Position numbers and translations under genes: made by a program
The notes under the pieces: model-generated
Told to the model about the DNA's origin: nothing
Seen by the model: only the letters and a program-made list of their open reading frames with translations
Database searches by the model: none
Shown here: one piece after another, positions 4,680 through 16,799 of the stretch
Layout: the number at the start of each line of letters is the position of its first letter
Numbering within the stretch: the stretch's first letter is position 1
IMG/VR virus record: IMGVR_UViG_3300010883_027240
Span: 1-64,000 of that record
Length of the DNA stretch: 64,000 nt
Reading direction: 5' to 3' (one strand)
Source of the DNA: a virus

Positions 4680-5341
4680 AGAAACTTGGTATAACCAGAG
4701 AAGAGCATGATGCTCATGAGAAAGCAAAAGCAAAGAACAAGACCTCAAATACTGAGAGCAGAAAAAAATATGAAAAAAGAAAAAGAGACGCCGAGATTAT
4801 AAAAAAACATTTCGCTTCAAGCGGAAAAATAATCAAAAGATTGCTTTGTGTTGGGGCAAGAAGCGAAAAAGAAGTAACTCAACTTAAAGCTGAGTTTGGT
4901 GAAGCGGTAGGTATAGATATTTTAAGTCCTACTGCTAATATTTTAAAAGTAGATGCACATAATCTAAAGTCTACTTTTGGTAAAAATGAATTTCATTTTG
5001 CATATGCCAGTCACTGTCTTGAGCACATGGTAGACCCAGAAGTTGTAATGGAAGGCATTAGACATGTTTCAAGGCTAGGATGTTTTATTACCCTACCTGT
5101 ATTTGATGTGCTTTATAAATCACATTGCAGCATGTTTGATATGTGTGAATTTATACATAACTTAGAGTATGCGAAGAGTGAAAAAATATTTGACATCTTA
5201 AAAGAAAATAACCATCTTTTTGATGATTTTTCATATTTTGGTGATTTTGAAGTTAGACACTTCGATTGCGAAACAGATGTCAAAGAAGTTGACAATAAAA
5301 AAATAATAAAAGAATTTAATCTTTTACTGGAGTGGGTGTGA
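4676..5341 (+). CDS. class I SAM-dependent methyltransferase (Methyltransf_11-like)
   Basis: The Rossmann core starts at about residue 54 ('RLLCVGARS'), a variant of motif I in which the usual G.G.G is Gly-Ala-Arg. 'AVGIDI' follows as the acidic loop, 'DAHNL' as motif II, and 'FAYASHCLEHMVDPEVVM' near residues 104-121 is the strongly diagnostic Methyltransf_11 stretch. The first 50 residues are Lys/Glu-rich and probably helical. It overlaps both neighbours (ATGA upstream, 10 bases downstream), so it is tightly coupled to the glycosyltransferase-like gene and the radical SAM gene. Acceptor unknown. Confidence 0.82.
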   Translation: MKKLGITREEHDAHEKAKAKNKTSNTESRKKYEKRKRDAEIIKKHFASSGKIIKRLLCVGARSEKEVTQLKAEFGEAVGIDILSPTANILKVDAHNLKSTFGKNEFHFAYASHCLEHMVDPEVVMEGIRHVSRLGCFITLPVFDVLYKSHCSMFDMCEFIHNLEYAKSEKIFDILKENNHLFDDFSYFGDFEVRHFDCETDVKEVDNKKIIKEFNLLLEWV

Positions 5342-6393
5342 GTTTTTTAAAATCAAATAAAGTTTTAAATCACCCTCAGAAATACAAAGAGTGGCATGAC
5401 AAAGGAGACACGCTAGGTCCTGTAACAGTTAAGATTGACTTGACTAATGTTTGCAATCATGACTGCCCTGGGTGTATAGACTATGACCTTATTGCAAATG
5501 ATAATAATAGTTTAAGTTTTGACTTATTTGAACAATTATTAGATGCACTAACAGCATGCGAAGTAACAGGCATTAACTATACTGGTGGTGGAGAGCCAAC
5601 AGTTCATAAAAACTTTGATAAAATAATAAGACTTACACATCAAAAAGGTTTTAAAATAGGACTAATATGTAATGGCTCTAGCTTTCACAAATGGCCAATG
5701 GAAGAGTTACTACCAATGTTTGAGTGGATTCGTGTGTCGTTGGATGCATATGATGCTGAAACTCACATAAGAACACATGGAAAGACTGCAAAGTTTGAAC
5801 CAACAGTAAGCAACTTAAAAATGCTTGCTAATATAAAAAAATCACAAAACTTAAGCACCACCCTGGGCGCAGGATTCATAACAAATCAACACGCAGACAT
5901 GGATAGAAGCTTGCATAAGTTTGTTGAAGTTTGTAAAGATTGTGGCTTAGACTATGCTCAATTACGCCCAAGCTTTGGATTTCTATATGACTACAAATCT
6001 ATTGATCCTTCAGAACTAAGAGCTTTATTTAAAAAAGCCAGATCATATGAAAATAAAAACTTTAAAGTTGTAATAGACGAAGGCAAATACGAAAAAATAT
6101 TATCCGGTCAAGGCACGAGTAGAAGTTACGATTACTGTCATGCACAATCTTTCAAGGCAACTACAATTACTGCTACAGGTGATGTATATATTTGCTGCTC
6201 TCTTACGGGCAAATCTGAAGGATGGATTGGTAATATAAAAAATAAAAGCTTTTTTGATATCTGGCATGGTGAAGCAAGAAGAGATACACTTAATAAACTA
6301 AATGTTAAAAAATGTCCACATTTATGTGTTGGTGACAGCCTAAATGAATTCTTAGACAAAGTAAAGAGTGTTTCCCATAAGGACTTTTTGTAA
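5332..6393 (+). CDS. radical SAM enzyme with C-terminal SPASM-type domain
   Basis: The protein (353 residues) carries the radical SAM cluster motif CxxxCxxC as 'CNHDCPGC' (residues about 41-48). It is followed by the 'YTGGGEPTVH' GGE motif that contacts SAM and by 'RVSLDA'. The C-terminal part has cysteines arranged like a SPASM/twitch domain: 'YDYCHAQ', 'VYICCSLTG', 'WIGNI' and 'CPHLCVG', which would hold auxiliary Fe-S clusters. Such enzymes oxidise or rearrange small molecules or peptides by 5'-deoxyadenosyl radical chemistry. Start GTG 5332 (GTG 5338 is possible). Lying between methyltransferase and GT4 genes, it may modify a sugar; the substrate is unknown. One of three radical SAM enzymes in the island. 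Confidence 0.85.
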   Translation: MGVSFLKSNKVLNHPQKYKEWHDKGDTLGPVTVKIDLTNVCNHDCPGCIDYDLIANDNNSLSFDLFEQLLDALTACEVTGINYTGGGEPTVHKNFDKIIRLTHQKGFKIGLICNGSSFHKWPMEELLPMFEWIRVSLDAYDAETHIRTHGKTAKFEPTVSNLKMLANIKKSQNLSTTLGAGFITNQHADMDRSLHKFVEVCKDCGLDYAQLRPSFGFLYDYKSIDPSELRALFKKARSYENKNFKVVIDEGKYEKILSGQGTSRSYDYCHAQSFKATTITATGDVYICCSLTGKSEGWIGNIKNKSFFDIWHGEARRDTLNKLNVKKCPHLCVGDSLNEFLDKVKSVSHKDFL

Positions 6394-8437: not shown

Positions 8438-9339
8438 GTTTAGTTTTTGTCATAGATAACATGCATGCAGGCAATGCTTACATAAGAGGCATTTTACCAG
8501 TAATGGGCATGACAAAAGATAGTATTGATGCAAAATATGTAGTTGCTTCAAATTTTGATTTAAATAGTGTTGACAGTAATGACACTGTAATCTTTGTAAA
8601 ATATGACAGACTTGGACAGTCAAGAGGTGTAAAGAAGACAGGTGCAAAAGTTATTCTAGATGTTGTTGATTCAAAAAAACACTGGAAGCAGCACAGAGAA
8701 AGCTTAGATGCTCTAATAGTAAATACAGATACGCAAATAAAAATTATAAGTGCTAGGGATAAATTTAAAAAGCCAATCATTAAAATACCGCATATAATAA
8801 CAAATTTTTCTAAAGACTTGGCCGGCCAAACAAGAAAAAAGCTTCCAGAGAAAATTAAAAATGTGGGCTACTTAGGCGTCGCAGATACTTTTTCATGTAT
8901 GCCTGATTTTTCAAGTTTTTGCAAAAACAATAATTTAAATTGGCAAACATCACAACCCACAATTAATTCAAATGAGCATGATACTTTAAAAATAGATTTG
9001 GGCTGTATCTTTTTTGTAGGAGATAAAGAAAGAATTGGCGGCACCCTTTCAATATCAAAACCTAGCGCAAAGTTAATAAATTTATTTTCTTATGGTATAC
9101 CCGCATTATTTTCACCATACGAGTCTTACTTAGATGCAATAGCAGCATCAGGATACACAGACTTGTTGTGGTGTTGTTGTAATACAAAAGAAGCAATGTT
9201 TGATAAAATAAAAGTTTTGATGGAAAATCATGACCTTTACAAAGAACTATCAAGTCAAGCATATGAAATGTCAAAAAATTACCATATATCAAATACTTCA
9301 AAAATATACAAAGACTTAATTAAATTTTCGGATCAATAA
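8434..9339 (+). CDS. probable GT-B fold glycosyltransferase
   Basis: The 301-residue protein has a Rossmann-like N-terminal half with no strong motif, a strand 'KNVGYLG' near residue 142 that looks like the start of a donor domain, and 'SAKLINLFSYGIPALF' near residue 208, which fits the helix and Gly-Ile-Pro turn of GT4-like donor sites. The usual acidic pair is less obvious, so the family is uncertain. It follows glf with a 4-base overlap, making it a candidate galactofuranosyl or related transferase; that is inference. Codon 130 region contains a GGCCGGCC palindrome (8820-8827). Confidence 0.6.
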   Translation: MSLVFVIDNMHAGNAYIRGILPVMGMTKDSIDAKYVVASNFDLNSVDSNDTVIFVKYDRLGQSRGVKKTGAKVILDVVDSKKHWKQHRESLDALIVNTDTQIKIISARDKFKKPIIKIPHIITNFSKDLAGQTRKKLPEKIKNVGYLGVADTFSCMPDFSSFCKNNNLNWQTSQPTINSNEHDTLKIDLGCIFFVGDKERIGGTLSISKPSAKLINLFSYGIPALFSPYESYLDAIAASGYTDLLWCCCNTKEAMFDKIKVLMENHDLYKELSSQAYEMSKNYHISNTSKIYKDLIKFSDQ

Positions 9340-10827
9340 ATGAATAAAATATGCCTTATTACTCCACCATCACCCTTTTTATTAGACGAGCGTGTATTTA
9401 TGCACATTGGGATTTTAAAGGTTGCATCTTCATTAGAGTCTAGAGGTTACAGTGTAGACTTTTTAGACTTGAGTGGGATTGATAATTATTTAACAGTAAT
9501 CGAAGATTATTGTAAAGAAAATACAGTTAAGGTGTTTGGTCTGACAGCTTCAACACCACAAATTCCGTTTGCAGCAAACATTACAAGCAAAATCAAAGAA
9601 ATAGTAAAAGATGCAAAAGTAATACTAGGCGGTCCTCATGTCACACTCATGAACACAGCAGCAAAACGAGAAAAAGTAGCCGGCTTATTGAAGTCTGATA
9701 GGGCTTCAAAAGATGTTGATAAGCTAAAGTCAATCTTTGATGTGCTTGTCTGTGGTGATGGAGAGCTTACAATTTTTGAAGCCATGAAGATTGACAAAGG
9801 CATCGTAGACGCTGATGACAGGAAGTCACCATACTTTCTATCAAATCAACAATTTTCAAGTTTACCTTTGCCCGCAAGACATCTTGTAGACGTTGACTCT
9901 TACAAGTATACCATAGAAGGAAAAAAATCAACAAGTCTTATAGCTCAGCTAGGGTGCCCATTTAAGTGTTCTTTTTGTTCAGGTCGCAACTCTCCGTTTT
10001 TAAGAAAGATAAGACAGCGAAGTTCAGAATCAATAATTGAAGAAATGAGAATGCTCAACAAAGACTACGGATTTACAGGTTTTATGTTTTATGATGATGA
10101 ACTTAATGTAAATAAAAACTTAATAGATTTATTGAATAGAATAACAAGATTACAAGATGAAGTAGGTCAAGAATTTAGACTTAGAGGTTTTGTCAAAGCA
10201 GAGCTTTTTAATAATGAGCAAGCAGAAGCTATGTATAGGGCAGGTTTTAGATGGCTACTTACTGGGTTTGAGTCTGGTGATGAAAGAATTCTTAAGAATA
10301 TCAAGAAGATGGCAAAGAGAGATGACAACACGCGTGCTGTCGAAATAGCAAAAAGTAATAACCTTAAAGTAAAAGCGCTTATGTCGATTGGGCATGCAGG
10401 TGAAAGTTTTGAAACTATAGAAAATACAAAAAAGTGGTTACTGGAAGCACAGCCGGAAGAGTTTGATTGTACTATTATAACAACTTATCCAGGTTCTCCA
10501 TACTTTGATGATGCAATAAAAAGTGATGATCACTATGTATATACATCAGATCTTACAGGTGATAAGCTGTATCAGGCATCAATTGACTATTTGTCTGAGC
10601 TGGACTATTACAAAGGCGACCCAGACGGCGGCTATGTTTCTTATGTGTGGACAGATCACATTACACCGAAAGAGCTTGTGTCTGCAAGAGATAATTTAGA
10701 AAAAGAAGTTAGAGAAAGCCTGGGAATAAATTTTAATTCAGCGCGCCCAGCTCTAAAATATGAACATTCTATGGGTATGGGAAATATAGAAATACCTGAT
10801 TTTATTCTAAGGAAATCTTCAAAATGA
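9340..10827 (+). CDS. B12-binding-domain radical SAM protein
   Basis: A 495-residue enzyme with an N-terminal cobalamin-binding-like domain (residues about 1-140: 'ICLITPP', 'KVFGLTAST', 'VILGGPHVTL', 'VLVCGDGE') and a radical SAM domain with CxxxCxxC as 'CPFKCSFC' near residues 207-214. 'FMFYDDEL' and 'WLLTGFESG' are typical later strands, and 'DNTRAVEIAKSN' and 'STIITTYPG'-like stretches continue the barrel. This architecture is common in enzymes that methylate unactivated carbons or rearrange polyketide, sugar and lipid precursors, and is rare in phages. It ends in an ATGA overlap with the kinase-like gene. Confidence 0.88.
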   Translation: MNKICLITPPSPFLLDERVFMHIGILKVASSLESRGYSVDFLDLSGIDNYLTVIEDYCKENTVKVFGLTASTPQIPFAANITSKIKEIVKDAKVILGGPHVTLMNTAAKREKVAGLLKSDRASKDVDKLKSIFDVLVCGDGELTIFEAMKIDKGIVDADDRKSPYFLSNQQFSSLPLPARHLVDVDSYKYTIEGKKSTSLIAQLGCPFKCSFCSGRNSPFLRKIRQRSSESIIEEMRMLNKDYGFTGFMFYDDELNVNKNLIDLLNRITRLQDEVGQEFRLRGFVKAELFNNEQAEAMYRAGFRWLLTGFESGDERILKNIKKMAKRDDNTRAVEIAKSNNLKVKALMSIGHAGESFETIENTKKWLLEAQPEEFDCTIITTYPGSPYFDDAIKSDDHYVYTSDLTGDKLYQASIDYLSELDYYKGDPDGGYVSYVWTDHITPKELVSARDNLEKEVRESLGINFNSARPALKYEHSMGMGNIEIPDFILRKSSK

Positions 10828-11495
10828 AACTCACATTAAAGACTATAAATTTTGAAGATTTTACAAAAGAAGCAACATCAGACAAGATCATTCAAGTTAA
10901 AAAGAAAAGAGAAAGAGCTGTTTATTACTTGCCAAAGAAGAGGCTTTTTTTCAAGACTTGGGTTAAAAACTGGACACAGTCTGAGATAACTAATTACGGA
11001 GTAGAGACAGGTTTTTATAATCAAAAAAATGCTAACTCTCTTTGTGCTGTGTTGTTTGATGAATCAGGTCCGAGGGGTTATGTGCAACATGCAGGAGAAT
11101 CAGCTGTTGCGAAAGGAAAAAGTGATAAATGCTGGGAGTATTTTGTAACTAAGACAACGCTAGATCAGCGAAAAAAATTTATCCATAACATTCTAGAAAA
11201 TTCAATTAGAGTAAAGGGTACGTACACTGATCTTGCGCCTTCCAATGTAATTTTTTATCAAGACAGGATCAATCTTATAGACTTCGAGTCATTTAGAAGT
11301 TTTGATCTTATATTCAATAGTAAAAGAGCAGACTTTGAAAAATTCGAACTTGATGCTTGGTGGAAGCCTGTTGAGACTGCAAAAAGAGATGCTAATAAAT
11401 ATATTAAAGAATATTTTGAAAAGTGCTTGGACATAAAATTTGATTTTAATATGAATTCTGAAGTCAACTTTAAGAAAGCCATGAACTTAATATAA
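10824..11495 (+). CDS. protein-kinase-fold phosphotransferase-like protein
   Basis: The region 'TDLAPSNVIF' followed by 'INLIDFESF' near residues 133-156 matches the catalytic Asp...Asn loop and the DFG-equivalent metal-binding Asp of small-molecule and LPS kinases (aminoglycoside phosphotransferase, WaaP/Kdo-kinase type). The His usually two residues before the catalytic Asp is Thr here. 'KKRLFFKTW' near residue 40 could hold the ATP-binding Lys. At 223 residues it is compact. It may phosphorylate a sugar of the glycan core. The fold call is a motif-level judgement. Confidence 0.6.
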   Translation: MKLTLKTINFEDFTKEATSDKIIQVKKKRERAVYYLPKKRLFFKTWVKNWTQSEITNYGVETGFYNQKNANSLCAVLFDESGPRGYVQHAGESAVAKGKSDKCWEYFVTKTTLDQRKKFIHNILENSIRVKGTYTDLAPSNVIFYQDRINLIDFESFRSFDLIFNSKRADFEKFELDAWWKPVETAKRDANKYIKEYFEKCLDIKFDFNMNSEVNFKKAMNLI

Positions 11496-11510: not shown

Positions 11511-12602
11511 TTGAAGTTAGCTTTTTACATATTTGGAACTACAAATTTTCAAGACATGTTTCCAATAATATTTTCATCAATAAGAGATGAAGAAGCTTGC
11601 TGGGTTTGTTTTTTTGATATTTTTAATGCAAAAAGACAGCTTTATAATTATTCAGAAGAAGAAGTGAAAGTATTTTTTGAAGAAAAATGCAAAGAACTTA
11701 ACTTAAAAGTACCAAAGATAAATTTTTATCGTCATAATGATCAAGAAAAATTAAATAGAGACTATCAATCTTTTAGTCCTGACTTTATCTTTGCTCAAGA
11801 AATTAAGCCAAAGTCAACTTACTGGTACCCGCCAACAAAAGCAAAAGTTATTCATCTTGCGTGGTGGGATGAGTCACACCATTTGAAAGATAATAAGCAT
11901 TTAAAGCCACACATATCAATACTAAAGCAGAAAGAAGACAAAAGGTTTTATCAAAAATACCATACAAGATATTTTGGTGATCTTAGACTAGAACACTTGA
12001 AATATAGCAAAGCATCTGTAGGCAATAAAAAAAGATGCTTTATACCAGAAACTTATATGAGAATCAATCAAGACTATGCTGAAATAAACAAAGAGCTTAT
12101 CAGTTTCTATAATCAGCTTTTTAAATTCTTAAAAAACAAAGACATTGAAATAGTTTGGAAAAAACGAGAGAAGGGATTCCCTAAGGGTAAATGGGCTAGT
12201 CCTTTAGACTTTACAGACACTCAGCCAGACAAGGTAATTGAGAAAGATCTAATATTTCCTTCATCCCTTGTAGATGAAGCATACCAAGCAGACTTTTGTT
12301 TTATCGTAGATGATAGCTTTGCATATTTTGACATAATAAACGTTAATTCAAATTGCTATATTCTTTACGTAAACAAGAAAAGAAAATATAAAATTGATGA
12401 ATTTTTTTTAGAATATAAAAATAAGATAATAGAAATAAATGCTAAAGATAGTTGGAAAAAAATAGAAGAAGTTTGCAATCTTAAAAATAACTTTAAAAAA
12501 GAAAATTTAGTCTTAGACAACCCATCTAATAAAATTTTAAAGTACTGTAGAGAAATTATAAAAAATGAAAAAAATAGCAGTAATACCGATAAAGACAAAT
12601 AA
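11511..12602 (+). CDS. hypothetical protein, possibly glycosyltransferase-like
   Basis: A 363-residue protein without a motif I can assign with confidence. Its plan is two alpha/beta halves: an N-terminal part opening 'KLAFYIFGTTNF', with 'PDFIFAQEIKP' and 'KVIHLAWWDESHH', and a C-terminal part with 'QADFCFIVDDS' and 'SNCYILYV'. This resembles CDP-glycerol phosphotransferase or GT-B proteins in outline only. The TTG start at 11511 follows AGGAAAG. The 3' end overlaps the CMP-sugar synthetase gene by 38 bases. The Lys/Asn-rich tail reads like a linker. Function unknown. Confidence 0.5.
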   Translation: MKLAFYIFGTTNFQDMFPIIFSSIRDEEACWVCFFDIFNAKRQLYNYSEEEVKVFFEEKCKELNLKVPKINFYRHNDQEKLNRDYQSFSPDFIFAQEIKPKSTYWYPPTKAKVIHLAWWDESHHLKDNKHLKPHISILKQKEDKRFYQKYHTRYFGDLRLEHLKYSKASVGNKKRCFIPETYMRINQDYAEINKELISFYNQLFKFLKNKDIEIVWKKREKGFPKGKWASPLDFTDTQPDKVIEKDLIFPSSLVDEAYQADFCFIVDDSFAYFDIINVNSNCYILYVNKKRKYKIDEFFLEYKNKIIEINAKDSWKKIEEVCNLKNNFKKENLVLDNPSNKILKYCREIIKNEKNSSNTDKDK

Positions 12603-13215
12603 CCAAAGACTCCAGGGTAAAAATACCATGGTGCTGGGTGAAAAACCCCTTTATCAACATTTGTTTGATACGATTACAAGTTGTCACAATATAGATGAAG
12701 TATACGTAGATAGCTCAGATAAATCAATACTTAAAATCGCAAAAGATTTTGGTTTAAGCACTTTTTTAAGAGACGAAAGTTTAAATGGCCCAGCTACGTC
12801 TGGAAATGATCTTATTAAAAATTTTTTAAACCAAATTGACTGCGATATACTGGGTCAATTTTTTGTAACTACACCTTTTTTAACTGCGAAAACAATAGAC
12901 AGATCTTTTGAAATACTTGAAGAAAATGATCATATGGATTCTTGCTTTGGTCTTTATGAAGTCCATGATAGATTTTGGATTGATAATAAGCCTGTTAATC
13001 ATGAAATGAAAAAACTTGTAGGTACACAGTACATGAAACCACTTAAACGCGAAGCAGGATTCTATGTGTTTAGAAAAAGACCGTTTCTGAAAGAGTGTTC
13101 AAGAATAACTGATAGCTTCTGTACATTTGATGTAAAACCTAACGAGTGTATTGACATTGATACAATAGAAGATTTTTTATATGCAGAAACAATTTACAAC
13201 AACATTGCGAAGTAA
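12565..13215 (+). CDS. CMP-sugar synthetase-like nucleotidyltransferase (NeuA family)
   Basis: Cytidylyltransferase of the NeuA/KdsB superfamily, which activates a keto-sugar acid with CTP. 'KIAVIPIKTNNQRLQGKN' (residues 3-20) is the nucleotide-binding P-loop-like motif, with Lys where NeuA usually has Arg. 'VYVDSSD' (about 47-53), 'FLRDESL' and 'FFVTTPF' follow the family order, and 'ECIDIDTIEDF' near residues 194-204 holds the metal-binding Asp residues. The 216-residue length is normal. It starts the 12565-16202 module with the aminotransferase, cyclase and radical SAM genes, directly abutting the next start codon. No NeuB-type condensing enzyme is present in the window, so the acid it activates is unknown. 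Confidence 0.8.
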   Translation: MKKIAVIPIKTNNQRLQGKNTMVLGEKPLYQHLFDTITSCHNIDEVYVDSSDKSILKIAKDFGLSTFLRDESLNGPATSGNDLIKNFLNQIDCDILGQFFVTTPFLTAKTIDRSFEILEENDHMDSCFGLYEVHDRFWIDNKPVNHEMKKLVGTQYMKPLKREAGFYVFRKRPFLKECSRITDSFCTFDVKPNECIDIDTIEDFLYAETIYNNIAK

Positions 13216-14373
13216 ATGAAAATTAGAAGATACAGATTAAAATACTCAAAAAAAGATATTGAATTTGTTAATAAACATGTAAAGAAGTTGCTTAATTCTG
13301 GGTATCTCACAGACGGTGGTCCCTATGTTGCAAATCTTGAAAAAATGTGGAAAGATTTTAACGGATCTAGTAATGCTATTGCAGTAAGTAGCTGTACTTC
13401 AGGTCTGGAGTGTATTCTTAGGGCAGTTGGAATAGAAGGTCATAGTGTGATTGTACCTGCTTATACTTTTATTGCCTCTGTAATGTCAATACACAATTGT
13501 AACGGAACACCAATATATGCAGATATTTCAAAAGATACGTTAGGGTTAAGTTTAGAAAGTATCAAAAAAGCTATCAGGAAAGATACAAAAGCTGTAATGA
13601 TTGTACATGTAGGCGGTATTATCACAGATGAAATTAATAAAATTAGAAAGTACTGCGACAATAAAAATATATTCTTAATAGAAGATGCAGCATGCGCGCA
13701 CGGAGCAGAATTTAATGGCACGAAGTCTGGAAATTTTGGCCATGCTGCATGTTTTTCTTTCCACCACTCAAAAGTTTTAACGTCAGGCGAGGGAGGTATT
13801 GTAACAACAGCCTCAGATGACTTGGCAGAAAAAATTAGAAGGAACAGGGCTATTGGTCTAGATCGATCTATTAACAACTGGGAGTCGTTTAATGTGGGCA
13901 GTAATTCAAAGATGTCAGAGCTTACTGCTATTTTAGGAATACTACATGTTAAGAATGCAGAAAAAATAATTAATGAAAGAAGAGAAATAGCAAAAATGTA
14001 TGATTCTTTGATAGCTTTTAAAAGTGACGTTTCAGCTTTCAAAATACCTCAAAAAACAAAGTCAGGATATTATAAGTACTTTTTAAGAACTACTCCTGAA
14101 ACTGGCATTTCATTGTCATTATTTCTAAAAAGTAAGGGAATTGATCTTCCTCCAAAAGCGTATAGCTATACTTGTGACCAGCAAGGGGTGAGCAAAATAA
14201 TGAAGTGTTCAACTTCTGGTAATTTAGAAAATTCAAAACATATGGTAGCAAATCATATTTGTCTACCAATGTATAACGGTCTAAAGAAAAAAGAAATTAA
14301 GTATATTGTTAGATGCATAAATCAATTTTTAGAGGAATCAAGTGAAGATAATTTCAACAATAAAAAATTATGA
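13216..14373 (+). CDS. DegT/DnrJ/EryC1/StrS-family PLP aminotransferase
   Basis: A sugar (or cyclitol) aminotransferase of 385 residues. 'GYLTDGGPYVANLE' near residues 29-42 is the family opening, 'SSCTSGLEC' binds the PLP phosphate, 'VPAYTFIAS' and 'LIEDAACAHGAEFNG' (Asp pairs with the PLP nitrogen) follow, and the Schiff-base lysine is Lys 186 in 'HHSKVLTSGEGG'. It would transfer an amino group from Glu or Gln to a keto-sugar or keto-cyclitol. It begins at the base after the CMP-sugar synthetase stop and overlaps the cyclase gene by 32 bases, so the two are probably made together. Confidence 0.92.
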   Translation: MKIRRYRLKYSKKDIEFVNKHVKKLLNSGYLTDGGPYVANLEKMWKDFNGSSNAIAVSSCTSGLECILRAVGIEGHSVIVPAYTFIASVMSIHNCNGTPIYADISKDTLGLSLESIKKAIRKDTKAVMIVHVGGIITDEINKIRKYCDNKNIFLIEDAACAHGAEFNGTKSGNFGHAACFSFHHSKVLTSGEGGIVTTASDDLAEKIRRNRAIGLDRSINNWESFNVGSNSKMSELTAILGILHVKNAEKIINERREIAKMYDSLIAFKSDVSAFKIPQKTKSGYYKYFLRTTPETGISLSLFLKSKGIDLPPKAYSYTCDQQGVSKIMKCSTSGNLENSKHMVANHICLPMYNGLKKKEIKYIVRCINQFLEESSEDNFNNKKL

Positions 14374-15403
14374 AGTTCACTTTGGTGAAAGCCTACCCCT
14401 TGATGAAGACTACTTTATAATAGACAAGAATGTCTATAACTTGCATAGAAAAAAACTATCAAGTATAAATAAGAATAGAATTTATCTAGTTGACGCTGAC
14501 GAAAAAGAAAAGTCTTTTAGAAGGTGTGCTGACCATATTGAAAGTCTTATTTCTTTGGGCTTGCGAAGAGGGCACACAGTTGCCGCCATCGGCGGTGGGA
14601 TCATTCAAGATCTTTCTGGATTTGTAGCATCAATAATATACAGAGGTGTTGACTGGAATTTTTATCCAACAACGCTTTTGTCACAATGTGATAGTTGTAT
14701 TGGTGGAAAAACATCAATAAATTTATCAGGTTCTAAAAATACTGTAGGAAATTTCAACCCACCTAACAAGGTAATACTGAATAAAAAGTTTTTAGATACA
14801 CTTGCAACACAAGAAATACAGTCTGGACTCGGTGAGATTTTAAAAGTGATGGTAATTGACAAAAAAGATAGAATAAAAACAAATGAGTTTTTGTTATGTG
14901 TTGAAAATTCTAGAATAAAAACAGGTGTATTGAAAGCGGCCCTTAAAATAAAAAAAGAGATTATTGAAAAAGATGAATTTGACAAAGGTGAAAGAAACGT
15001 TATGAACTACGGCCATACATTTGGTCACGCAATCGAGTCTATAACTAGTTTCAATGTACCTCACGGAATCTCAGTCGGTATCGGGATTAAAATAGCAAAC
15101 AGTATCTCTGAACATTTAAACTTAGTAGACAAAGAAAAAATCAAAGAAATCAATAATAGTGTTAACTTTTTTGTAGAAAATAATCAACACCACGTAGACT
15201 ATTTTTTAAAAAGCTTTGATACAACAAGATACTTAAAGTGTTTATCAAAAGATAAAAAGAATACAGATAATGATAATTTAACATGTATTCTTTTAGATTC
15301 AAACGGGTCACCATTTAAAACAAAAATAAGCAACGTAAGATTAAATGGAATTCTAGAAAAAAATATTAAAAGCTGGCTCGGAAACAAAAATGAAGATACC
15401 TAA
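14342..15403 (+). CDS. dehydroquinate-synthase-type sugar phosphate cyclase
   Basis: An AroB-superfamily enzyme of 353 residues. 'AIGGGIIQDLSGFVA' is the NAD loop. The metal ligands line up as Glu 165, His 225 and His 241, with the same 16-residue spacing between the histidines as in true DHQ synthases. Catalytic residues of DHQ synthase are present by motif: Asp 117 and Lys 123 ('CDSCIGGKT'), Lys 132-Asn 133, Lys 204, Arg 218, Asn 222 and His 229 ('NYGHTFGHAIE'). It therefore looks active and of the DHQ/amino-DHQ type rather than the scyllo-inosose or valiolone type. The GTG start follows GAGGAA. Why a phage needs it is unclear; the flanking aminotransferase and radical SAM genes suggest a carbasugar route. 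Confidence 0.88.
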   Translation: MKIISTIKNYEVHFGESLPLDEDYFIIDKNVYNLHRKKLSSINKNRIYLVDADEKEKSFRRCADHIESLISLGLRRGHTVAAIGGGIIQDLSGFVASIIYRGVDWNFYPTTLLSQCDSCIGGKTSINLSGSKNTVGNFNPPNKVILNKKFLDTLATQEIQSGLGEILKVMVIDKKDRIKTNEFLLCVENSRIKTGVLKAALKIKKEIIEKDEFDKGERNVMNYGHTFGHAIESITSFNVPHGISVGIGIKIANSISEHLNLVDKEKIKEINNSVNFFVENNQHHVDYFLKSFDTTRYLKCLSKDKKNTDNDNLTCILLDSNGSPFKTKISNVRLNGILEKNIKSWLGNKNEDT

Positions 15404-16202
15404 ATTTAAAAACTTAAGAATTGAAATAAATTCTGACTGTAATAGAAGGTGCCAGTTTTGCCCAAGAGACAAAGATGATACAAGATGGAAAGTTGATAAA
15501 AATAACAAAAAAAAGCTAGTATACAAACTAATGAAAGATGAGTTAGTTTATTCAATTTTAGATCAAAATGTCTCTCAAGGCTTTAATGCAGCTGTAGGGT
15601 TTGATTTTTATAATGAACCTACTATGGACGACCGCCTTTTTAAATTTTTAGAATTTACATTAAACACCGGCTGCAAAACAGAAATTGTAACAAACGGTGA
15701 TACAATCAAAAAAGACAAAGACTATGCTCATGAATTTTTTAAACGTGTATCATTCACTAATATATCACTATACGATTATAGAGATCTGGAGGGCAGAAAA
15801 AAGCTCATGTCTTGGTGGGAAGATTATCTTGCAGACTTGAAAATTTCAAAACATAGGTATAGACTAGTAGGAGAATATTTTAACTTTGGGAATAGGGCTG
15901 GTACTGTAGATCGTAAAGATAAGTTTATGAATGGAGCACACTTAGATAGTAAAGTACCTCTCAGCGCAAATTGCGCAAAAATTCATGCAAAGATGAATAT
16001 AAGATACGACGGTGAGATACCTATTTGCTGTGAAGATGCACTAGTTCAACACTCACTAGGTAATGTTAATAAAAATACACTATCGGAGATATGGTATGGT
16101 CCAGAAATGATTAATGCAACAATGTTATTAGCAAAAGGCAAAAGATCAGCCATTAGCCCATGTGACAAATGTGTAAAGAGCATAAGACCCATAATACTCT
16201 AA
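15390..16202 (+). CDS. radical SAM enzyme with SPASM/twitch-type C terminus
   Basis: A short (270-residue) radical SAM protein. The cluster motif CxxxCxxC is 'CNRRCQFC' (residues 17-24). 'GFDFYNEPTMDD' takes the place of the GGE motif, and 'KTEIVTNGD' is the next strand. The C-terminal cysteines 'SANCAKIH', 'IPICCEDA' and 'SPCDKCV', with 'SLGNVNKNTLSEIW' between, are a SPASM/twitch arrangement for auxiliary clusters. Size and layout recall radical SAM alcohol dehydrogenases of aminocyclitol pathways (BtrN type), but also many unrelated SPASM enzymes. It overlaps the cyclase gene by 14 bases. Substrate not known. Confidence 0.85.
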   Translation: MKIPKFKNLRIEINSDCNRRCQFCPRDKDDTRWKVDKNNKKKLVYKLMKDELVYSILDQNVSQGFNAAVGFDFYNEPTMDDRLFKFLEFTLNTGCKTEIVTNGDTIKKDKDYAHEFFKRVSFTNISLYDYRDLEGRKKLMSWWEDYLADLKISKHRYRLVGEYFNFGNRAGTVDRKDKFMNGAHLDSKVPLSANCAKIHAKMNIRYDGEIPICCEDALVQHSLGNVNKNTLSEIWYGPEMINATMLLAKGKRSAISPCDKCVKSIRPIIL

Positions 16203-16211
16203 GGGATAAAA

Positions 16212-16799
16212 ATGGAAATTGATTTTGAAGACATAGAAACAAAATGCAAAGAAGCGTCAGCAACAGACGAATATGAAATTTTAGTTAATAAAGTAAACAA
16301 AGCAAAGCGAATATTCTTAATAGGGAATGGAGGTCTTCATTTTGTTGCTAGTCATATGGCGACAGACTTATCTAGACTGATACCTGACAAAGTTGTATAC
16401 TCATTTGATAGTGTAGGATTTATCACATCAAATTCAAACGATCACGGGTTCGAGCAAGTTTTTGTAAGATGGTTAGCGACAGTTGCTGAAATTGAAGATC
16501 CCAGTGAATGTTTAGTAGTGGGCCTTTCATGCTCAGGAAACTCTTCAAATGTTATTAATGCACTACACTGGGCTGATAGTAAAAAGATGTCAACATTTTT
16601 AATAAGCGGGGAGGAGTCTGAAAATTTAAAGAAAGAAATTGATGAATTGCCAATAAGGTGCAAATATTTTCACACAGTTGAAGTATCAATTTTGATGATT
16701 TTTTATGATCTTATTCACAGAACAGGCAATCACTGCCCAGCAATTAGAGACGAAAAAGATAGATTATCTGGCTCTCCCCTTCGTAGTCTCAAGGTCTAG
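16212..16799 (+). CDS. SIS-domain phosphosugar isomerase, GmhA-like
   Basis: GmhA turns sedoheptulose 7-phosphate into heptose 7-phosphate, the first step of ADP-heptose synthesis. The SIS signatures are 'FLIGNGGLHFVASH' (residues about 36-49), 'NDHGFEQVF' and 'GLSCSGNSSNVINAL', all placed as in GmhA, and the length (195) is normal. Compared with E. coli GmhA the zinc site is partly changed: the first His (in 'ASHM') stays, the following Glu appears as Asp, and the C-terminal Gln/His pair reads His/Met. It could thus be a GmhA variant or another SIS isomerase. It sits about 14 kb from the other heptose genes but in the same unidirectional island. Confidence 0.8.
   Translation: MEIDFEDIETKCKEASATDEYEILVNKVNKAKRIFLIGNGGLHFVASHMATDLSRLIPDKVVYSFDSVGFITSNSNDHGFEQVFVRWLATVAEIEDPSECLVVGLSCSGNSSNVINALHWADSKKMSTFLISGEESENLKKEIDELPIRCKYFHTVEVSILMIFYDLIHRTGNHCPAIRDEKDRLSGSPLRSLKV

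Follow-up and report, generated by a model that had tools for sequence, protein, structure and literature searches.

Two described pathways come closest to the locus studied here: the butirosin-type route to 2-deoxystreptamine, which uses the cyclase BtrC, the aminotransferase BtrS and the radical SAM enzyme BtrN, and the synthesis of Kdo8N in Shewanella by KdsB, KdnA and KdnB. Both had been named as inexact parallels in a preliminary description of four genes from a phage that we judge to be T4-like from its baseplate wedge genes; they lie in a stretch (the window) comprising bases 1–64000 of the 70,842-base virus record IMGVR_UViG_3300010883_027240. The genes encode a cytidine monophosphate (CMP)-sugar synthetase of a subfamily here called CMP1, an aminotransferase (AT), a cyclase (CYC) and a radical SAM enzyme (RS), and we recovered all four where they had been placed, with the same junctions of 0, −32 and −14 bases (table 1). 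Pfam searches matched them to CTP_transf_3 (E 6e-21), DegT_DnrJ_EryC1 (7e-87), DHQ_synthase (1e-33) with DHQS_C (2e-28), and SPASM (2e-10), the Radical_SAM match of the last being sub-threshold. A fifth gene, for a GmhA-like SIS isomerase, begins 9 bases 3′ of the RS gene and had been overlooked. The set sits inside a glycan locus of approximately 3.0–22.7 kb that also encodes a UDP-galactopyranose mutase, a nucleotide-sugar dehydrogenase, an epimerase and GT4 glycosyltransferases. We propose, at about even chances, that this glycan-building cassette represents the aminotransferase form of a cyclase module that is itself widespread, and that it leads from a sugar phosphate, most likely one resembling 3-deoxy-arabino-heptulosonate 7-phosphate (DAHP), to a CMP-activated aminocyclitol acid.

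The top family match of the window cyclase was NCBIfam TIGR04425, an AroB-related putative sugar phosphate phospholyase (cyclizing), at 375.4 bits (cut-off 400) versus 257 bits with aroB (cut-off 305). Since the curated cut-off is missed, as it is by members from Pelagibacterales (350–399 bits), the protein is classed by score as TIGR04425-type and not as a formal family member. In the tree its clade, which includes TIGR04425 members above the cut-off, was split from AroB with support of 100/100, so that the cyclase falls in a group of its own, sister to AroB, and is not a host AroB. Dehydroquinate synthase (DHQS) matched it at 157 bits and BtrC at 105 bits, and it is probably not a 2-deoxy-scyllo-inosose (DOI) synthase. 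We know of no assayed function for the TIGR04425 family.

Approximately 60 loci of this clade were found in IMG/VR phage contigs and approximately 60 in bacterial genomes, the latter from a scan that covered bacteria and archaea (84,980 genomes). As loci were chosen via sequence patterns and some viral loci are copies of one another with identical rows, these counts are neither a random sample nor a tally of independent events. The hosts include Pelagibacteraceae, Desulfobacterota, Bacteroidota, Cyanobacteria, Magnetospirillum, Verrucomicrobia and others, and the surroundings were of glycan type wherever inspected. In seven host genomes that were checked, the family model scored 427–472 bits (390 in Pelagibacteraceae); six held a further, lower-scoring AroB-like match, and the remaining one (G002) had a single match over threshold. 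INPHARED phages gave only distant AroB-like matches (<34%), and a plasmid search gave no match. The result is a cyclase family spread across many phyla and phages, for which a literature search on the family name and on quinate or cyclitols in polysaccharides returned nothing useful.

The preliminary description had noted DHQS residues in the cyclase, and every residue we checked is indeed kept. Of 15 active-site positions taken from fungal DHQS, 14 show little or no variation among 119 clade sequences, and the window protein has all of them; the position of K197 is lysine in 70 and histidine in 48 of the 119. In the numbering of the fungal enzyme (AnDHQS), the window protein retains E194, H271 and H287, which we take to be the Zn ligands; R130, K250, R264, N268 and K356, presumably the carboxylate and phosphate ligands; and D146, K152, N162, K197 and H275. 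Across all, or nearly all, of the 119 cyclases K250, R264, N268 and K356 are kept, whereas these four and E260 are lost in one sequence resembling 2-epi-5-epi-valiolone synthase (EEVS) and one resembling EboD. This retention favours a carboxylate-bearing, DAHP-like substrate, short of proof.

To place the window cassette among its relatives, neighbouring genes were clustered in 118 cyclase loci. In 101 of them the gene immediately before the cyclase encodes a short-chain dehydrogenase/reductase (SDR); the cultured bacterium Draconibacterium mangrovi (L065) is among those with the SDR version. Two nearly exclusive architectures emerged. Type I combines an acetolactate-synthase-like thiamine pyrophosphate (TPP) enzyme with an HpcH/HpaI aldolase or NeuB-like enzyme, the SDR and the cyclase: 36 loci pair the TPP enzyme with one of the two, and among 40 TPP loci SIS was absent and a CMP synthetase occurred once. 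Type II combines a GmhA-like SIS protein and a CMP synthetase with the SDR and the cyclase (CMP synthetase in 46 of 49 SIS loci); phage loci of this type add a class-III aminotransferase, and cellular loci a 2-hydroxyacid dehydrogenase, an IolG-like dehydrogenase and an HpaI-like aldolase. The window locus is of type II, with a DegT aminotransferase at the SDR position; the SDR, the usual partner of TIGR04425, is missing beside this copy. A pyruvate- or phosphoenolpyruvate-using aldolase or NeuB-like gene lies near the cyclase in 53 of the 118 loci, which fits a 3-deoxy-ulosonate substrate.

The order CMP-AT-CYC recurs in six further IMG/VR phage contigs (L002, L006, L007, L008, L031 and L133/L138), a recurrence that makes the arrangement more than chance. 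SIS follows the cyclase in all seven phages, directly or behind RS. The complete four-gene order of the preliminary description was found in only one other phage, and the conserved unit is instead CMP-AT-CYC-SIS. Scans of IMG/VR with the CMP1 alignment and with the AT alignment returned the same six contigs and no other close relatives (single-protein scans with RS and CMP1 had found nothing, so that alignment-based scans were needed); within IMG/VR both subfamilies occur only alongside this cyclase type, always adjacent. No cellular source of the AT was found, as none of 197 Pelagibacterales genomes had a match to its subfamily above 36% identity. A search of the seven AT-type loci turned up no SDR of the usual family, save for a weak 72-residue match to an epimerase-like gene in L007.

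The seven AT-type cyclases are polyphyletic: those of the window, L002, L006, L007 and L138 group together, that of L008 groups with bacterial L063 and L085, and that of L031 with the SDR-type phages L029 (84% identity) and L034 (83%). On a 41-row tree, an approximately unbiased (AU) test rejected their constraint to one clade (p-AU 3.7e-8). SDR and AT have thus been exchanged at least three times. In L031, the cyclase and SIS (70%) side with the SDR-type phages, while the CMP synthetase and AT side with the window group (48–54%), the former being 49–52% identical to members of that group and only 28% identical to its counterpart in L029. This pattern suggests that one CMP synthetase with its AT and another with its SDR replace each other on a retained cyclase and SIS; since the CMP synthetase swaps together with the AT or SDR, it probably acts after them. 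The simplest reading of the exchange, on closely similar cyclases, is that cyclase and SIS would deliver one ketone, that amination or reduction would come next and that CMP would be attached last. L031 and L029 provide a matched enzyme pair for testing this order. L007 and L008 carry a second, separate CMP synthetase gene. In L007 this gene precedes a KdsA-like gene, and the same stretch (9321–11077) includes a small HAD-like gene, its family assigned by eye; the three may form a separate CMP-ulosonate route.

A profile built from six CMP1 relatives best matched NeuA structures (E 1.4e-14), with the N- and C-terminal motifs RLxGKN and DID...D invariant in the six. CMP1 shares PF02348 and the NeuA-like profile with the CMP-ulosonate synthetases NeuA, PseF and KdsB, but lies far under the equivalog cut-offs (67 of 206 bits for PseF) and forms a subfamily of its own tied to the AT. 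In the AT, the motif HHSK with the pyridoxal phosphate (PLP)-binding lysine (K186) is invariant in six sequences. Its nearest solved relatives are perosamine synthase, which scored highest, and the scyllo-inositol and scyllo-inosose transaminases. The SIS profile matched structures of GmhA, the phosphoheptose isomerase (E 9e-14). The upstream GT-B-fold protein has no Pfam match; its AlphaFold model (predicted local distance difference test score, pLDDT, 75) gave the WaaA Kdo transferase 2xci as top PDB match in Foldseek (E 7.6e-7, TM 0.47), a generic GT-B resemblance that is at best a weak hint of a CMP-sugar donor. This gene is a conserved upstream neighbour in L002, L006 and L138.

On sequence, the identification of RS as a short, BtrN-like SPASM/twitch enzyme stands. 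BtrN was the sole convincing solved relative of the RS profile, matching over its full length (E 1.4e-22; next match 0.02). The aligned positions comprise the cluster cysteines C17, C21 and C24 of the CxxxCxxC motif and C195, C213, C258 and C261, an NRAG motif, and R169 as the equivalent of BtrN Arg152, a residue that we take to have a functional role. The predicted RS model was too poor to use (pLDDT 53), and a fold search gave no significant match. RS occurs in the window and L138 only (72% identity) and is absent from the five other cassette phages; it is an accessory gene. Distant RS relatives occur in 14 of 197 Pelagibacterales genomes, only one of which also has the cyclase, so that the proximity of RS and cyclase in L103 is probably a coincidence. 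The glycan locus of the window encodes another SPASM radical SAM protein, of 353 aa, at 5332–6393, adjoining methyltransferase and glycosyltransferase genes.

Table 1. Genes of the cassette and its upstream neighbour, in window coordinates.
Feature	Position	Strand	Remarks
GT-B-fold protein, putative transferase of the CMP-activated product	11511..12602	+	38-base overlap with CMP gene
CMP-sugar (ulosonate-type) synthetase, subfamily CMP1	12565..13215	+	PF02348
DegT/DnrJ/EryC1/StrS PLP aminotransferase (AT), at the usual SDR position	13216..14373	+	PF01041
AroB-paralogue sugar-phosphate cyclase (CYC), TIGR04425 type	14342..15403	+	GTG start; DHQ_synthase + DHQS_C
Short SPASM/twitch radical SAM enzyme (RS), BtrN-like, accessory	15390..16202	+	SPASM; CxxxCxxC
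GmhA-like SIS phosphosugar isomerase, core member	16212..16799	+	gmhA 64 bits, below cut-off

Further genes lie just upstream of the cassette. A B12-binding radical SAM protein (9340–10827) resembles PhpK, BchE and HpnR, all with scores far under the cut-offs, and is 81–82% identical to its copies in L002 and L138, a conservation well above that of the cassette. The next gene (10824–11495) is kinase-like by eye (YTDLAPSN ... IDFES), gave no match in a Pfam search and is kept in L002, L006 and L138. In the related phage genome L002, an adenosylhomocysteinase-like gene (again by eye) lies at 9988–11304.

What was observed is which genes are present and in what order, the families they belong to, their conserved residues, the recurrent exchange of SDR and AT and the pairing of CMP1 with AT; from this we infer the following substrates, products and reactions. 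The cyclase would act on a sugar phosphate by AroB chemistry (transient NAD oxidation, phosphate loss and intramolecular aldol reaction), the substrate most likely being a DAHP-like 3-deoxy-heptulosonate 7-phosphate, supplied or adjusted by the GmhA-like isomerase, and the product a six-membered, dehydroquinate-like keto-cyclitol acid. Its ketone would be reduced by the neighbouring SDR in most relatives and aminated by the DegT AT here. The NeuA/KdsB-like enzyme would then join CMP to the product via the hydroxyl beside the carboxylate, and the GT-B transferase would move the activated product onto a glycan. A dehydroquinate-like acid is the carbocyclic counterpart of a 3-deoxy-ulosonic acid, and this would account for a NeuA/KdsB-type enzyme being part of the set. 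In the two phages with RS, this enzyme probably oxidises another hydroxyl, making a second amination possible. The earlier idea of an amino-carbasugar for a glycan is thus probable, with cyclase, AT and CMP synthetase forming one functional unit, and we too found no such phage set in the literature. More tentatively, a CMP-activated carbocyclic ulosonic-acid analogue (an aminoquinate-like carbasugar acid, or its hydroxyl form in loci with the SDR) could be a regular glycan building block of phages and many bacteria; this is a class of activated sugar that we do not know to have been described. If the product is a carbasugar, the surface glycans of bacteria and phages would contain a unit that may have escaped structural surveys.

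Several points weigh against this proposal. The known CMP synthetases of this family use ulosonic acids with a ring oxygen, and we know of no precedent for CMP esterified to a tertiary alcohol on a carbocycle. The GmhA-like SIS protein suggests a heptose 7-phosphate rather than DAHP, and the HpcH and NeuB genes belong mostly to the TPP type, which lacks SIS and CMP synthetase, and not to the CMP type of the window. The link of RS to the cassette is weak outside two phages, and no assayed enzyme of the cyclase clade was found in the literature. Finally, residue conservation is no proof of substrate, as 2-epi-valiolone synthases reportedly resemble DHQS in the tree and would be mistaken for it (PMC5133447, the EboD paper).

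The isomerase could also indicate a C7-cyclitol route, in which sedoheptulose or heptose 7-phosphate, handled by SIS, is cyclized to a valiolone-like ketone and converted to a validamine-like aminocyclitol before CMP activation. We consider this unlikely, though a genuine competitor: SIS resembles phosphoheptose isomerase and travels with the cyclase, as in L031 and L029, and sedoheptulose 7-phosphate cyclases are frequent in the superfamily (PMC5133447), but the clade retains the five residues that the EEVS-like and EboD-like sequences lack, and CMP synthetases require an alpha-hydroxy acid group in the substrates known for them. Rather unlikely as well is that the genes are neighbours with no shared pathway, CMP1 making an ordinary CMP-nonulosonate, the AT working on a nucleotide sugar and the cyclase product going elsewhere. 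Each of the three families is frequent in glycan loci, and the perosamine synthase match of the AT would suit such a division. It would not account for CMP1 and AT being confined to the company of this cyclase, for their exchange as a unit, in three or more lineages of the cyclase, with an SDR-type pair, or for the separate CMP synthetase gene that L007 and L008 already have, next to a KdsA-like gene in L007.

The remaining explanations equate the locus with known systems. Of these, a Kdo8N-like pathway to an amino-ulosonic acid with no carbocycle is the least probable: a CMP synthetase and a DegT enzyme are in common, the AT matching KdnA at 147.8 bits, but the place of the iron alcohol dehydrogenase KdnB is taken by a cyclase with PF01761/PF24621 (DHQS_C) domains and cyclase residues, and this parallel of the preliminary description falls away. 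It is highly improbable that the cyclase is an auxiliary DHQS boosting aromatic synthesis in the host. The window protein does share with AroB the domain family and all mapped active-site residues; it differs in its separate clade, in having W105 and DSCIG-KTSIN where AroB has a DS/AS-V/I-GGKTG motif, and in its setting among glycan genes together with an SDR or AT, and in the genomes checked the clade cyclase occurs beside an AroB-like paralogue (six of seven) and not as its replacement. A true 2-deoxystreptamine-type pathway, from glucose 6-phosphate via DOI to an aminocyclitol, is very unlikely. The butirosin enzymes BtrC, BtrS and BtrN are of the same three types, and the AT is BtrS-like (148.7 bits) and RS BtrN-like, with Arg152 and the cluster cysteines aligned. 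The two systems part in that the phage cyclase is a TIGR04425-type AroB paralogue nearer DHQS than DOI synthase, RS is optional, being missing from five of seven phages, and the phage set adds an SIS isomerase and a CMP synthetase, an enzyme with no role in 2-deoxystreptamine synthesis.

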